A DNA stretch of 64,000 bases from Cryomorphaceae bacterium (GTDB taxonomy: Bacteria; Bacteroidota; Bacteroidia; Flavobacteriales_D; Crocinitomicaceae). The translations under genes and the position numbers were made by a program. Shown here piece by piece: positions 2,727 through 7,040 of the stretch (position 1 is the first letter of the stretch; every line of letters begins with the position of its first letter). The stretch is taken from the NCBI GenBank assembly GCA_027483605.1, contig JAIXUE010000037.1, positions 1 through 64,000 on the forward strand. Direction: 5' to 3'. Below the pieces are notes generated by a model that was given only the letters and a program-made list of their open reading frames with translations, made no database searches and was not told where the DNA came from.

Positions 2727-2753
2727 GTGTGGATTGCTTTGTTCTTTTACAAA

Positions 2754-3482
2754 CTATAACCAACGAAAGATATCATCAAAAAGCCTTTTGCCCCAAGGTG
2801 TAGTGCCGTATTCTTTCTCAATTTTTTGACGCAATTCGGTGATGGTGAATACTTTGTTTTTACCTGGATTGAGCAATAATTCTTCTTGTTTAGGCGTAAG
2901 GGCTTCAATTTTTTTGGCAAAATAGACAATCCCGCCATCTTCGGTGGCAAGGCCAAGAATGGTGCCTGGTAAGCCGCAAAAACCTTCAGGCCCTACAGAA
3001 GGCGTGAGCATGGGTGTGTACCAAGCGTAGAGGCGCGTACTGTCATTCTTTTGATAAATTGCTTTTCTGCATTCATAACCACAAATCGTACGTTTGCTAT
3101 CGGTGATTTTCCAGGTCCGCTGTGGAAGGCTATCTTGCACATATACATTTTGTCCAAAAACAGCGAGCATCATGAGCTGCTTGTTGTTTTTGAGGTTTTG
3201 ATAATATGCATTTTTGGTGGTAAGCCAGGCCATTTCTTCGGGTTCATTGCTCGGGACAACCGCAAAATAAGCAGCAGTATCGTTAAATGAAAGCTGAAAA
3301 GACTCGATGCGAATTTTGTTTTCTTCGGTCACAAAACGCTTCATGCGCTGATCAGTAAAGCGTTTTTCAAGGTTGGTGCGGCGTTCAAAGGTGATTTTGC
3401 CAGCATGGATGTATTCTGTTTGCGCCCAGGCTTGTAGACTGAGCAACAAGGCACTAATGCCACATACGAAGATCTTCTTCAC
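2754..3482 (-). CDS. GLPGLI family exported protein
   Basis: This 242-residue protein has a signal peptide (about residues 1-20, ending AWA-Q). The family signature appears as GLPGTIL at residues 170-176, inside GPEGFCGLPGTILGL. Two nearby cysteines (C134, C138, in ICGYECRKA) could form a disulfide, a common arrangement in this family. The role of GLPGLI proteins is unknown; they are typical of Bacteroidota and commonly sit beside TonB-receptor-like barrels. That is the case here: the start overlaps the end of the upstream barrel gene by 29 bases, so the two are almost certainly translated from one mRNA. Confidence 0.9.
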   Translation of the reverse strand: MKKIFVCGISALLLSLQAWAQTEYIHAGKITFERRTNLEKRFTDQRMKRFVTEENKIRIESFQLSFNDTAAYFAVVPSNEPEEMAWLTTKNAYYQNLKNNKQLMMLAVFGQNVYVQDSLPQRTWKITDSKRTICGYECRKAIYQKNDSTRLYAWYTPMLTPSVGPEGFCGLPGTILGLATEDGGIVYFAKKIEALTPKQEELLLNPGKNKVFTITELRQKIEKEYGTTPWGKRLFDDIFRWL

Positions 3483-6198
3483 GGGTTTTGTTGTTGTTAA
3501 ATTTGTAAGTCAAGCGCAAGAGAAAGTAGCGCGTGATGATGCGCGTGAAGTTGTCGGTGATCATGTTGCCACTGACTGTACGCTGCAAATTGATGTTTTG
3601 ATTCAGCAAGTCGTTGATTGAAAATCCTAGGATGAGGTTTTCTGTTTTCAAGAAAGCTTTTTGAACTTCTAGGTCGACGATAAAGAGGTCGCGGTTGAAC
3701 GCATCGGCGCGCCCGCGGTTCAAGGTATAGTTGAGCTCCCATTTGAAACGGAAATGTGCAGGTAAGCGCCAATCGCCGGTCATGGAATAATTCTGGGTAG
3801 AGTAGGGCTGGTTGGCAAAAGTACTGAGCGTGGTCATTGGATTCACATAAGTATAATCTGCAGCAACGTTTAACTCTAAGCTATCCAAACTGATTTCTAT
3901 AGAAAAGGCCCCGTTTAATGTAGTGGTGCTAGTGGTATTGAGTTGGTTGTTGATGTAGTTATTGTTCCTGAAGTAAGAGGCATTCATACTCGGCTCAAAA
4001 GTGAGTTTGCGGTTCAGAATTGGATAGCCACCACCTGCATAAACAGTTGCAAACATGTTGCCATCGACATTAACCGTCTTTGAAATTGTTCTTCCGAATT
4101 GGTCAAATGTCGTACTGTTGCCAAAGTCGTTTTGCGTAAAGGTGGCGTTACCCCCCGACCAAATGTAGCGGCCGCTCATGGCTTGCCAAACGTTGGCATT
4201 GAAGTTGATTTGGTGCTGATAATTGGGCTGAAGATCAGGATTTCCTTCTTGGATGCGGTTAGGGTTGGTATTATCTCTAACCGGTTGTAAATCGTTGGCA
4301 CTTGGCGGCGCTGAATAAGTGCTGTAGCGGATGCTCATGCGCTTGGCCATACTCGGCTTGAACTGATAAGAGAAATTCGGCAAGAAATTGGAGATATTCT
4401 GATTGATCGCCACGCCATTGAATTGATTGATGTTGTCTATTTGTATGTTGCGAAAGCCTAAACCACCTGAAATGCGGTGGCTTTTGTAGAGGTAAGTAAG
4501 GGTGGTGGTACCGCGGTGTTGCAAACGCTCATTGATGAAATCATTGGTAAAGAGGCTGTCTATTTGATTGAATTGCCCAACTAGGTTGGGATTGTAGGTG
4601 TAGCGCGCTTGGTTAGATGCGCCTAATTCTAGAAAATATTCAGTGGTAAGTAAAAAGCTTTTGGAAAGCGGTTCTGTGTAAGAAAGCGTCACAAAGTTGG
4701 TGTTGCTTAAATTGTTGTTGGTCTTTCTTTGATTGGCGATAGTATCAAAAGCCAAAGCATTAGTGTTGGTCACTAGCCTACCTTCTGAGGAGTTGTTATT
4801 GTAACGAAGGATGTATTTCGCTTCTAATTCACGGTCTTTTTTAGCGAACTTTCTTCTTAAAATAGCTTCCGAATTACTGCTTACTCCTTTTGAGTCATAG
4901 GTGTTGTTCACGTTGGTGAGCAAATAAGAGGCAAAGCTGTTGTCTAGGAATTCATTGACAGACGTGTTGTTTTGGGTCCCGAGATCGAAGTGTACATTGG
5001 GCTTGAGTTCTAGCTTAGTTAGTGAATCAATATCGATTTGTAGATTCATATTGAAGCGGTGGGAGCTGCTGGTGGTTTGATTGGTGTCTGCGTCTTTGGT
5101 ATAATAAGAGCTGTCTGCCAAGAAGTACTGCGTTTGCGAGTTTGAGATGGCTTGAAGGCGGCTGTCATAATAAGCGTAATTGACACCGAGCTTTACTTTT
5201 TCAGAAAGGCGGTCGCTATAGTAAACACCCGTTTTGAGTGTTTGCGGAATGCCAGAGTTGTTGCCCCTGGAGTCGCGGTCCCAGAAATTGAGGCCACTCG
5301 CATCTCGTTCGTTATCGAGTCCAAATTTATTCATGTCTCCAAATCCAAAACTAGATTTTGGGGTGTTGGAGGCAAGCATAAAGACGGAGATCTTTTGGGT
5401 TTTATTGAATTTATTGAACAAGAGTTCAGATTCATAGAAGGCTTCGTCGGCAGCACCTTGATTGAAGTCAGAGGCAACTGCGGCTTTTCCAAAATAGCCG
5501 CGCTTGGCTTCGTCTTTGAGCTTGAGGTCTAAAACCTGTATTTTGTCGTCTTCACCGGCAGCGGCATCTTCGTTTTTCTTTTCATAAACTTGTACGGATT
5601 CTACGCCGTTGGCCGCAAGATTTTTGGTGGCAATGGTGGGGTCTGAGCCAAAAAACTCATCGCCGTCTACCAATACCTGACTAATTTCTTTACCCTGAGA
5701 AGTGATGCTGCCGTCGTCTTCGACTTTGATGCCCGGGAGTTTTTTGAGCAGGTCTTCTACCACGGCATTTTCAGCTACTTTAAAAGAGTCGGCCACAAAA
5801 ATAAGTGTATCGCCGCTGAAATACATTGCGTTTCGGTTGCGTGTCACCACCACTGCCTGAACGTCTTGTATTTTGGGGTACAGTCGGATGTCTGGGAGCT
5901 CGAAAGTAGATTTCTTAGCAGAGCCCATTAAGTAAATACTGCGAGGTGTCCAGTTACTGTGTTCGATCAGGAGTTGAAAAGAATCCAGTGGGAGGTTATT
6001 CAAGGCAAATTCACCATTGGCATTGCTGCGGGTGAAGCTCACCAAAACGGAGTCTCGGAGATGAATTGCCATAATGCTCGCTTGGTGGATTGGCGTAATG
6101 CCAGTGCTGTCTACTAAACGACCACTCACTTGCATGTTTTGACTGTAAGAAAGTGTGGAAAATAGAAATGAAAGACTAATAAAAAGTAATTTTTTCAT
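3454..6198 (-). CDS. TonB-dependent-receptor-like outer membrane beta-barrel protein
   Basis: The 914-residue protein starts with a signal peptide (to about residue 19, LSYSQ). A carboxypeptidase-regulatory-like beta-sandwich follows at about 22-110 (MQVSGRLVDSTG, ANGEFALNNLPLDSF). The plug-like domain at about 115-230 contains LLKKLPGIKVEDDGSI and VLVDGDEFFGSDP. The rest is a long region rich in Asn and aromatic residues with alternating hydrophobic strands, as in the Bacteroidota outer membrane beta-barrel family. It has the architecture of a SusC-like receptor but no SusD partner lies next to it; the partner is the GLPGLI gene downstream. The substrate is unknown. Confidence 0.9.
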   Translation of the reverse strand: MKKLLFISLSFLFSTLSYSQNMQVSGRLVDSTGITPIHQASIMAIHLRDSVLVSFTRSNANGEFALNNLPLDSFQLLIEHSNWTPRSIYLMGSAKKSTFELPDIRLYPKIQDVQAVVVTRNRNAMYFSGDTLIFVADSFKVAENAVVEDLLKKLPGIKVEDDGSITSQGKEISQVLVDGDEFFGSDPTIATKNLAANGVESVQVYEKKNEDAAAGEDDKIQVLDLKLKDEAKRGYFGKAAVASDFNQGAADEAFYESELLFNKFNKTQKISVFMLASNTPKSSFGFGDMNKFGLDNERDASGLNFWDRDSRGNNSGIPQTLKTGVYYSDRLSEKVKLGVNYAYYDSRLQAISNSQTQYFLADSSYYTKDADTNQTTSSSHRFNMNLQIDIDSLTKLELKPNVHFDLGTQNNTSVNEFLDNSFASYLLTNVNNTYDSKGVSSNSEAILRRKFAKKDRELEAKYILRYNNNSSEGRLVTNTNALAFDTIANQRKTNNNLSNTNFVTLSYTEPLSKSFLLTTEYFLELGASNQARYTYNPNLVGQFNQIDSLFTNDFINERLQHRGTTTLTYLYKSHRISGGLGFRNIQIDNINQFNGVAINQNISNFLPNFSYQFKPSMAKRMSIRYSTYSAPPSANDLQPVRDNTNPNRIQEGNPDLQPNYQHQINFNANVWQAMSGRYIWSGGNATFTQNDFGNSTTFDQFGRTISKTVNVDGNMFATVYAGGGYPILNRKLTFEPSMNASYFRNNNYINNQLNTTSTTTLNGAFSIEISLDSLELNVAADYTYVNPMTTLSTFANQPYSTQNYSMTGDWRLPAHFRFKWELNYTLNRGRADAFNRDLFIVDLEVQKAFLKTENLILGFSINDLLNQNINLQRTVSGNMITDNFTRIITRYFLLRLTYKFNNNKTREEDLRMWH

Positions 6199-6236
6199 GA
6201 AATAAGGGTCGGTACAATTATATAAGACGTTTGAAA

Positions 6237-7040
6237 TCAGTAAAATGTTGCGTTTGTGTTTTGAATTGCGGTCAGGACTTGGTATTGCAGGCCCGATGCT
6301 TCTTGTACATCTTGGAATTGAATAGAAAATGTTTGTTTTCTGAAGCTGTTTGGATTTTTTTCAAAGGCAAGAACAGAAGTGTCGTTGGGTGCGTAGGCGA
6401 GGTTGCTGGAGTATTCGTCATTGCCAAACTGCACAAACTTCTTGTTGAATGCTTCGTCGAAACCTTGAAAATAGAGTGTGAATGCGCCGTTTTGATTTTG
6501 CATTTGGGAGAGCATTTGCAAGGCGTTATCGATATCGCTGTTGGTTTTTTTATCCGATTTAATGGCCTTGAAAGGCACTTGCTTGCCGTTGATCACTTCT
6601 CTAGCGTAGCTGGCAATTGGGCTTTGATTGGCATTGTAAAAAACAAAAGTGCAGTGGTTTCGAAGGGTAGAGCTGCGCATGTTAGATTTGTTTACGAGCA
6701 CCATACTCAAGACCTCTTTGAGAAAGTAAAAAGTATATTGAACCTTATGCCCCAGGGGGTCAATCTTTTCGAGGCTAGCCTTTAAGATTTCTCCATTGGT
6801 ATCGAGCAGCGCTTCAGATTTGATGGTGTATGCACTTTTATGGGTAAAGAATAGCGATGGAAGTCGTTTGAGGTCTTGGCGTGCATCTACCTTTTCTTGG
6901 TAGTTCAGAAAAGCAGAGAGACCTTTAAATGTGGGCTCAAAAATTAATTTGGTCTCTTTTTTGGTGTCGACACCATTTGAGGTTTCTTTGCAAGAAAGAA
7001 ACAGGAGGGGAAGCAGAAGGAGCAATACTTTTTGAATCAC
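6237..7040 (-). CDS. Unknown lipoprotein
   Basis: The 267-residue product begins at a GTG (7040), the only plausible start before a perfect lipoprotein signal (MIQKVLLLLLPLLFLSC, lipid attachment at C17). After the cysteine comes a short linker (KETSNGVDTKK) and a mixed alpha/beta body with no domain I recognise. It is probably held in the inner leaflet of the outer membrane or at the periplasmic face. The next gene downstream (3454-6198) begins 38 bases past its stop, so the lipoprotein, barrel and GLPGLI genes may form one transcription unit. Upstream, ruvX is divergent, 46 bases away. Confidence 0.75.
   Translation of the reverse strand: MIQKVLLLLLPLLFLSCKETSNGVDTKKETKLIFEPTFKGLSAFLNYQEKVDARQDLKRLPSLFFTHKSAYTIKSEALLDTNGEILKASLEKIDPLGHKVQYTFYFLKEVLSMVLVNKSNMRSSTLRNHCTFVFYNANQSPIASYAREVINGKQVPFKAIKSDKKTNSDIDNALQMLSQMQNQNGAFTLYFQGFDEAFNKKFVQFGNDEYSSNLAYAPNDTSVLAFEKNPNSFRKQTFSIQFQDVQEASGLQYQVLTAIQNTNATFY

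Follow-up and report, generated by a model that had tools for sequence, protein, structure and literature searches.

A GLPGLI family protein and a TonB-dependent-receptor-type barrel as a candidate envelope unit of Bacteroidota, with a lineage-specific lipoprotein in Crocinitomicaceae

Introduction

For outer-membrane receptors of the TonB-dependent type, the partners that are discussed are mostly surface ones, for example SusD. In the SusC-SusD and BtuB-BtuG systems, a lipoprotein gene lies directly beside the barrel gene. Other described systems are related by domain content. The Oar-type transporters, as characterized in the relevant passages of PMC6434023, join an N-terminal CarboxypepD_reg extension to a barrel. 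In Flavobacterium johnsoniae, Fjoh_0545 of the phoBR operon is a PF14905 barrel with a CarboxypepD-type domain; the part of PMC8115612 that deals with this operon lists it beside a hypothetical lipoprotein, Fjoh_0546, and reports its induction by phosphate depletion.

The proteins of the GLPGLI family (TIGR01200/PF09697) are mainly an annotation class or entries of expression tables in the literature passages that mention them. These passages attribute no role to the GLPGLI genes and do not pair them with a barrel, and no description of such a pairing was found in the literature searched, which took in a minority of the subscription papers. By sequence profile, the family is related to the N-terminal bowl-like (NBL) domains of PNGase F-II and of the B. 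massiliensis PNGase (PDB 4R4Z and 7ZGN), a domain whose role is given as unknown in the sections of PMC9522356 and PMC12381499 that treat it.

This report addresses a locus in which a GLPGLI gene, a barrel gene and a lipoprotein gene follow one another. The window analysed is a stretch of 64,000 nucleotides (contig JAIXUE010000037.1, assembly GCA_027483605.1) from a Cryomorphaceae bacterium assigned to the Crocinitomicaceae.

Organization of the locus and identity of the barrel

The three genes are carried by the minus strand in the order lipoprotein (6237–7040, 267 aa), barrel (3454–6198, 914 aa) and GLPGLI family protein (2754–3482, 242 aa, GTG start), with spacings of 38 nt and −29 nt. A first-pass annotation, made from the sequence of the window, had placed the lipoprotein gene 38 nt upstream of the barrel gene on the same strand and had reported an overlap of 29 bases between the barrel and GLPGLI genes; both observations are borne out, the overlap (29 nt) covering positions 3454–3482.

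The barrel matches PF14905 (OMP_b-brl_3) with 93.5 bits for a gathering cut-off of 27, over residues 449–794 (positions 3817–4854); in alignment A5, each of the 30 barrels is matched by this model at E≤0.01. The carboxypeptidase-regulatory domain previously noted in the barrel is confirmed: residues 23–87 (5938–6132) match PF13620 with 34.2 bits, above the cut-off of 32.3. The designation 'SusC-like', by contrast, is unsupported as a family name because no NCBIfam model, among which we take the SusC/RagA models to be included, matches the barrel at E≤1. The profile built from the 30 barrels does reach the solved SusC homologue 5t3r (E 9.7e-9), at positions 2–164, and its matches to SusC homologues are restricted to the N-terminal positions, none extending beyond 164. 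The Plug model does not match the window barrel in the Pfam scan; among the 30 relatives, Plug (PF07715) matches two (best 8.4e-4) and the TonB_dep_Rec barrel model four, at E≤0.01. A VVVT segment, read by eye, precedes the plug-like region and is a candidate TonB-box-like segment. A profile search finds three TonB_C matches in the genome. On these sequence grounds, the protein is best called a putative remote TonB-dependent-receptor-type barrel with an N-terminal CarboxypepD_reg domain.

Like the SusC-SusD and BtuB-BtuG pairs, the window barrel has a lipoprotein gene as its direct neighbour. However, it is not a SusC by model and its lipoprotein has no SusD match. Five genes of the locus were scanned and none of them matches a SusD model, in agreement with the earlier statement that a SusD-like partner is lacking, and the 29 aligned lipoprotein relatives give scattered Pfam matches (best E 7.4e-4), none of them to SusD. 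The barrel shares its N-terminal extension with the Oar-type transporters but differs from them in matching PF14905 and not PF00593. Its likeness to Fjoh_0545 is one of domains and neighbouring gene.

The C-terminal tail of the barrel (residues 900–914, positions 3457–3501) is conserved in the alignment of relatives: it is similar across the genus rows shown and also in L053 and L063, where the GLPGLI gene does not overlap the barrel gene. One genus relative (G017) has its barrel broken into three frames, the genes on either side having full-length frames.

The GLPGLI protein

The GLPGLI protein is a near full-length member of its family: it matches TIGR01200 with 116.8 bits (cut-off 50) over positions 2–227 of 229, matches PF09697 with 29.2 bits (cut-off 25) and carries the family signature at residues 164–176 (positions 2955–2993). 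It is the single TIGR01200 match of its genome at E≤0.001. In an alignment of 82 GLPGLI proteins, G164, P165, L171, P172 and G173 are each retained in at least 80. The position of C138 (3069–3071) is nearly invariant, with a cysteine in 76 of these 82 proteins, an alanine in 5 and a valine in 1; it is invariant across the 35 rows of alignment A4. In some members (L049, L063, L067 and L073), this conserved cysteine is the sole cysteine of the GLPGLI protein. The N-terminus looks, by eye, like a signal sequence and is devoid of a lipobox, which suggests the periplasm; the protein is thus inferred to be periplasmic.

The GLPGLI profile matches the NBL domain structures 4r4z (E 2.1e-8, positions 93–208) and 7zgn (E 0.0039). 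In addition, 32 of the 35 relatives of the GLPGLI protein match PF22252 at E≤0.01, the window protein itself scoring 24.1 bits, under the cut-off of 27.6. The catalytic domain of the PNGases is absent from the window protein and, in the profile alignment, 4r4z has a valine where the GLPGLI proteins carry the conserved cysteine. A structure model of the GLPGLI protein, computed from five sequences 92–94% identical to that of the window, reached a pLDDT of 30.

The locus in close relatives

The search took in 60 relatives, from which 40 barrel regions were fetched: 30 come from the genus, which has 36 relatives in the set, and ten from other families of the order. The six genus relatives left out have barrel pieces only (G001, G006, G014 and G031) or no match (G010 and G030, which are 74% and 68% complete). 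The counts for the genus concern the 28 of 30 loci that have a full-length barrel, since the contig of L065 ends inside the barrel and the barrel of L075, the locus of G017, is broken. In all 28, a lipoprotein-sized gene lies directly upstream of the barrel gene on the same strand and the GLPGLI gene lies directly downstream. In 27 of these loci, the GLPGLI and barrel genes overlap, the overlap being 23, 29 or 38 nt; in the remaining one, 19 nt separate them.

Other families of the order display different arrangements. The barrel is followed by GLPGLI, without this lipoprotein, in G049 and G038, which belong to another family; GLPGLI precedes the barrel in G046, G058, G052 and G042; and four barrel regions (L070, L071, L072 and L074) have no GLPGLI neighbour detectable by BLAST with the window protein.

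Within the genus, the flanking genes are largely housekeeping ones (RuvX, Def, polyprenyl synthetase, RmlA), and they differ between genera. Eighteen genus regions include the polyprenyl synthetase gene. In 14 of these, a gene of 287–306 aa, read by eye as RmlA-like in two of them, separates it from the GLPGLI gene; this additional gene is absent in the window (2727–2753) and in L036, L040, L043 and L044. In part of the genus (L048, L055 and L057), the trio is accompanied by an upstream RND-type permease gene of about 1155 aa, and L048 and L055 also have a downstream MMPL/RND-like gene (881 and 913 aa), the permease names being given by eye in these two loci.

Pairing of GLPGLI proteins and barrels across the class

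The class-wide survey covered 99 genomes, with thresholds of 1e-15 for GLPGLI and 1e-60 for a strong barrel. GLPGLI matches were found in 31 genomes (64 matches, up to eleven in one genome) and strong barrel matches in 53. Of the 64 GLPGLI matches, 27 have a strong same-strand barrel at a distance of no more than 600 nt. They come from 24 of the 31 genomes, counting the own genome and one genus relative, whereas chance would produce about 0.02 such adjacencies in genomes of 3.5 Mb. When a looser profile is used for the barrel, GLPGLI adjoins a same-strand barrel in 31 of the 37 regions fetched from outside the family, in 26 of 29 genomes; these regions were hand-picked to cover all 29 non-family genomes and hold part of the 62 matches found there. 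The figure of 31 comprises 29 regions established by gene calls and two (L137 and L143) by match coordinates, the GLPGLI frame having been dropped there, and the adjacency in L132 depends on a gap of 502 nt. The earlier remark that GLPGLI proteins are common beside TonB-receptor-like barrels in Bacteroidota thus holds for most of these regions, the barrels being recognized by profile.

Among the 29 regions with gene calls, the barrel is downstream of GLPGLI in 17 and upstream in 12. Both orders being present, the pair is therefore not one frozen operon. The regions devoid of a neighbouring barrel are three from G079, which hold four of the eleven GLPGLI matches of that genome, together with L133 and L152; that of L151 has a broken copy. 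Conversely, 25 of the 53 strong-barrel genomes have no GLPGLI match at 1e-15, and such barrels can therefore exist without a GLPGLI partner. With barrels that lack GLPGLI so common, the dependence would seem to be largely one-sided.

A Pfam scan of ten weaker barrels detects a CarboxypepD-type domain in seven (E≤0.001, with some scores under its cut-off), one of which also matches PF14905; the other three have no Pfam match at all. By profile, the distant barrels thus belong to the group, but most of them score too low for Pfam's barrel model.

Some genomes carry several GLPGLI genes at one place. In G090 (L120, 3767–13338), seven GLPGLI frames, one of them broken by a stop, follow a single CarboxypepD_reg barrel. 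Four GLPGLI genes occupy much of the 5.8-kb contig of L133. G223 (L113, 4937–8407) has a tandem barrel-GLPGLI-barrel-GLPGLI arrangement.

Matched evolution of the two partners

The distances between GLPGLI proteins and those between their adjacent barrels are strongly correlated (Mantel r 0.905 for 66 pairs, one of which, L113, has proteins in common with two others), a value reached by none of 2000 permutations. The class-level subset of 29 pairs gives r 0.81, again reached in 0 of 2000 permutations. Species relatedness contributes to this correlation, as the Mantel test leaves kinship in. Genomes that carry two pairs remove this effect. In four of them, the matched partners give higher values than the swapped ones: 0.38 and 0.73 versus −0.23 and −0.64 in G098, 0.52 and 0.72 versus −0.08 and −0.22 in G142, 0.38 and 0.54 versus 0.20 and 0.10 in G122, and 0.66 and 0.24 versus 0.59 and 0.03 in G152. 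The difference is marginal in G254, and G223 is a tie at two decimals. In G090, the swapped partners fit better than the matched ones, which counts against cognate pairing.

A clade comprising 38 of the 40 rows with the barrel before GLPGLI, and one shared-duplicate row, is found in the separate trees of the two proteins (SH-aLRT 99 and 98), and the two other pairs of this order, L120 and L125, are outside it in both. The coding sequences overlap in 35 of the 40 barrel-then-GLPGLI pairs versus 4 of the 26 GLPGLI-then-barrel pairs, gene starts being taken from the longest reading frames, a choice that favours overlaps in either order.

Within the genus, rate covariation gives no extra signal: it is 0.59 for barrel and GLPGLI, versus 0.70 for barrel and RuvX and 0.69 for barrel and polyprenyl synthetase, and the three proteins of the trio covary no better with one another than with their housekeeping neighbours. 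This result, like the largely housekeeping and changing flanks, would be expected if the neighbourhood were a by-product of a common expression domain, the proteins having no joint action. For the barrel and the GLPGLI protein, such an explanation is nevertheless very improbable: the same partner families occur in two gene orders, paralogues are matched in four genomes and the association recurs in 26 of 29 non-family genomes, a combination that is hard to obtain without joint function. These arguments do not extend to the lipoprotein. Recurring matched partner families across a large bacterial group suggest, from sequence comparison, that GLPGLI proteins and barrels work together.

Sequence, speed and spread of the lipoprotein

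The lipoprotein has a lipobox, LFLSC, with the cysteine at position 17 (by eye), and neither Pfam nor NCBIfam has a model that matches it at E≤1. All 29 aligned lipoproteins have a cysteine in the corresponding alignment position or close to it. Aspartate or glutamate occurs at +2 to +4 after this cysteine in 21 of the 29, versus 5 of 20 rows of another lipoprotein that served as control (Fisher p 0.0015), or 5 of 16 (Fisher p 0.012) without four rows in which the cysteine had been wrongly taken. The minimal surface-export (LES) motif, given as K-(D/E)2 in the passage of PMC5080379 that defines it, is complete, by eye, in 4 of the 29.

In an AlphaFold2 model computed from five sequences, residues 41–182 (positions 6495–6920) form a predicted beta-meander domain whose blocks mostly have pLDDT values of 70–84, with one at 50; residues 1–36 and 183–267 are under 50. 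The C-terminal third looks OB-like by eye. No fold was assigned to the lipoprotein: the best VIA-align score (Z 8.0, with OspA) is closely followed by VDAC and unrelated chains, and Foldseek with the model gives no match at E≤0.001.

The lipoprotein is the fastest-evolving member of the trio. Over 29 trios, including that of the window, the lipoproteins share on average 27.6% identity in pairwise comparison, the barrels 59.1% and the GLPGLI proteins 64.6%. In the 18 genomes with comparable neighbours, the lipoprotein (33.3%) also outpaces RuvX (60.9%) and a second lipoprotein encoded nearby (51.6%). In the same comparison, the barrel (64.7%) and GLPGLI (72.2%) evolve more slowly than RuvX and polyprenyl synthetase (58.5%), but not more slowly than Def (79.6%). 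Surface exposure would agree with the speed of the lipoprotein and with the mild acidity of the residues that follow its cysteine, but the complete LES motif is limited to the 4 of 29 cases mentioned.

That the barrel is more conserved than polyprenyl synthetase and RuvX agrees no less with a core function than with a variable nutrient receptor. Among the 150 genomes of the family, the barrel profile matches at least 136 (E≤1e-50) and the GLPGLI profile at least 139 (E≤0.001). This breadth and slow evolution raise the alternative that barrel and GLPGLI serve export or outer-membrane building rather than uptake, with GLPGLI as a carrier in the periplasm from which the barrel receives a protein or lipid. 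There are precedents on both counts: Oar, a CarboxypepD_reg TonB-dependent transporter, is required for protease secretion in Myxococcus according to the portion of PMC6434023 concerned, and Bacteroidota have BAM complexes with extra membrane and lipoprotein subunits, as described in parts of PMC12611786 and PMC12578637. However, the F. johnsoniae BAM consists of BamA, D, G (of the FadL family), H, M and P in the sections of PMC12611786 that list it, none of these subunits being described there as a GLPGLI protein or as such a barrel, the literature search for GLPGLI did not retrieve these BAM papers, and no cargo gene is seen kept beside the pair in the neighbourhoods listed, a minority of whose genes were identified. 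A role in export or assembly is therefore regarded as unlikely; the more specific identification with a BAM subunit is not preferred, in view of the same description of the complex.

The lipoprotein profile matches 131 of the 150 family genomes (E≤0.001). BLAST with the window lipoprotein finds nothing in G012, G024, G026, G029 and G036, where homology rests on position and alignment. As profile A3 contains these five, its matches in them are circular; matches in genomes that are not in A3, for example G243, G293 and G309, are not.

With presence limits of 60 bits for the lipoprotein and 284 bits for the barrel, 123 genomes have both proteins, 19 have neither and the discordant ones are four and four, giving an agreement of 142 of 150. 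Such an agreement would be expected of one obligatory three-protein machine, the lipoprotein gene merely lying elsewhere in some genera. Moreover, the four barrel-only genomes are incomplete, two at 59% and two at 76–79%. Nevertheless, G208, G228, G249 and G244 have the lipoprotein without a strong barrel, and 17 of the 19 genomes with neither protein fall in six genera (g121, g125, g128, g136, g138 and g139) and therefore represent few independent events.

The position of the lipoprotein gene varies between genera. It adjoins the barrel gene in 19 of 19 genomes of g1, 18 of 18 of g134, 5 of 5 of g124, 15 of 19 of g133 and 4 of 12 of g126. In seven other genera (g21, g118, g122, g123, g127, g130 and g131), no genome has it beside the barrel, though the lipoprotein is present in most. 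Some genomes of g21, g122, g123 and g127 have both genes on one contig, at least 100 kb apart; the cases from g118, g130 and g131 all have the two genes on separate contigs, some of the genes being near a contig start. In the examples fetched, the surroundings of the unlinked lipoprotein vary and are unrelated between genera, which also argues against the obligatory machine. In L086, L089, L091, L092 and L093 (g120, g122, g123 and g129), the unlinked lipoprotein is beside or near large proteins of the shared clusters c4 and c9.

When 149 genomes from across the class were scanned, the lipoprotein was retrieved in three, all of its own family; four partial matches outside the family (2e-4 to 9e-4) were treated as noise. 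Barrel-GLPGLI pairs thus exist outside the family, where the lipoprotein is represented by these marginal matches only. An obligatory trio is accordingly judged rather improbable. By its distribution in sequence searches, the lipoprotein is characteristic of the family, and a part of the family has it linked to the barrel.

A shared promoter was considered and discarded: sigma-70-like elements number 9, versus 8.6 in shuffled sequences, and terminator-like ones 6, versus 5.8. Promoter-like elements of the Bacteroidota type occur at scattered positions before both the lipoprotein gene and the barrel gene, and that before the barrel start counts against assuming co-transcription with the lipoprotein gene.

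A proposed two-protein core with a cognate GLPGLI subunit

The first-pass annotation had proposed that lipoprotein, barrel and GLPGLI protein form one set that handles an imported or exported ligand. The barrel-GLPGLI part of this proposal stands well beyond the genus, by adjacency as well as by correlated distances. The inclusion of the lipoprotein holds in the genus, in g124, g133 and g134 and in part of g126, and fails in the seven genera where the genes are never adjacent; likewise, the synteny that is constant in the genus is absent from the pairs outside close relatives. We consider it somewhat more probable than the contrary, at roughly 55%, that the core is a two-protein envelope unit made of a TonB-type barrel and a cognate periplasmic GLPGLI protein, to which a lineage-specific lipoprotein is added.

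In such a unit, the barrel would combine its CarboxypepD_reg domain, a plug-like segment and the PF14905 barrel, and would probably depend on TonB. Overlapping translation may ensure that barrel and GLPGLI are made in step. The GLPGLI protein would then bind the periplasmic face of its own barrel, towards which the CarboxypepD_reg domain and the C-terminal tail presumably face, and, once bound, would receive or present the ligand of the barrel. The lipoprotein would be located at the outer membrane, perhaps at the surface, where it may help in ligand capture or shield the barrel. A GLPGLI protein made in step and bound on the periplasmic side is the simplest model for a cognate pair that is independent of gene order. 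As for the ligand, the phosphate-regulated Fjoh_0545 may provide a lead, by analogy, and a lead only.

A more general proposal can be put forward tentatively, with a little under even confidence: GLPGLI proteins would be dedicated periplasmic subunits of one class of TonB-type barrels, each recognizing its own barrel alone, that have undergone expansion into tandem sets serving one barrel in some lineages, and in Crocinitomicaceae-like bacteria the fast-evolving lipoprotein would have been recruited third. The tie of GLPGLI proteins to one type of barrel and their matched evolution turn this into a testable statement, namely that each GLPGLI protein binds the barrel encoded next to it. If this is true, receptors that are discussed mostly with their surface partners would also have a subunit in the periplasm, the GLPGLI protein.
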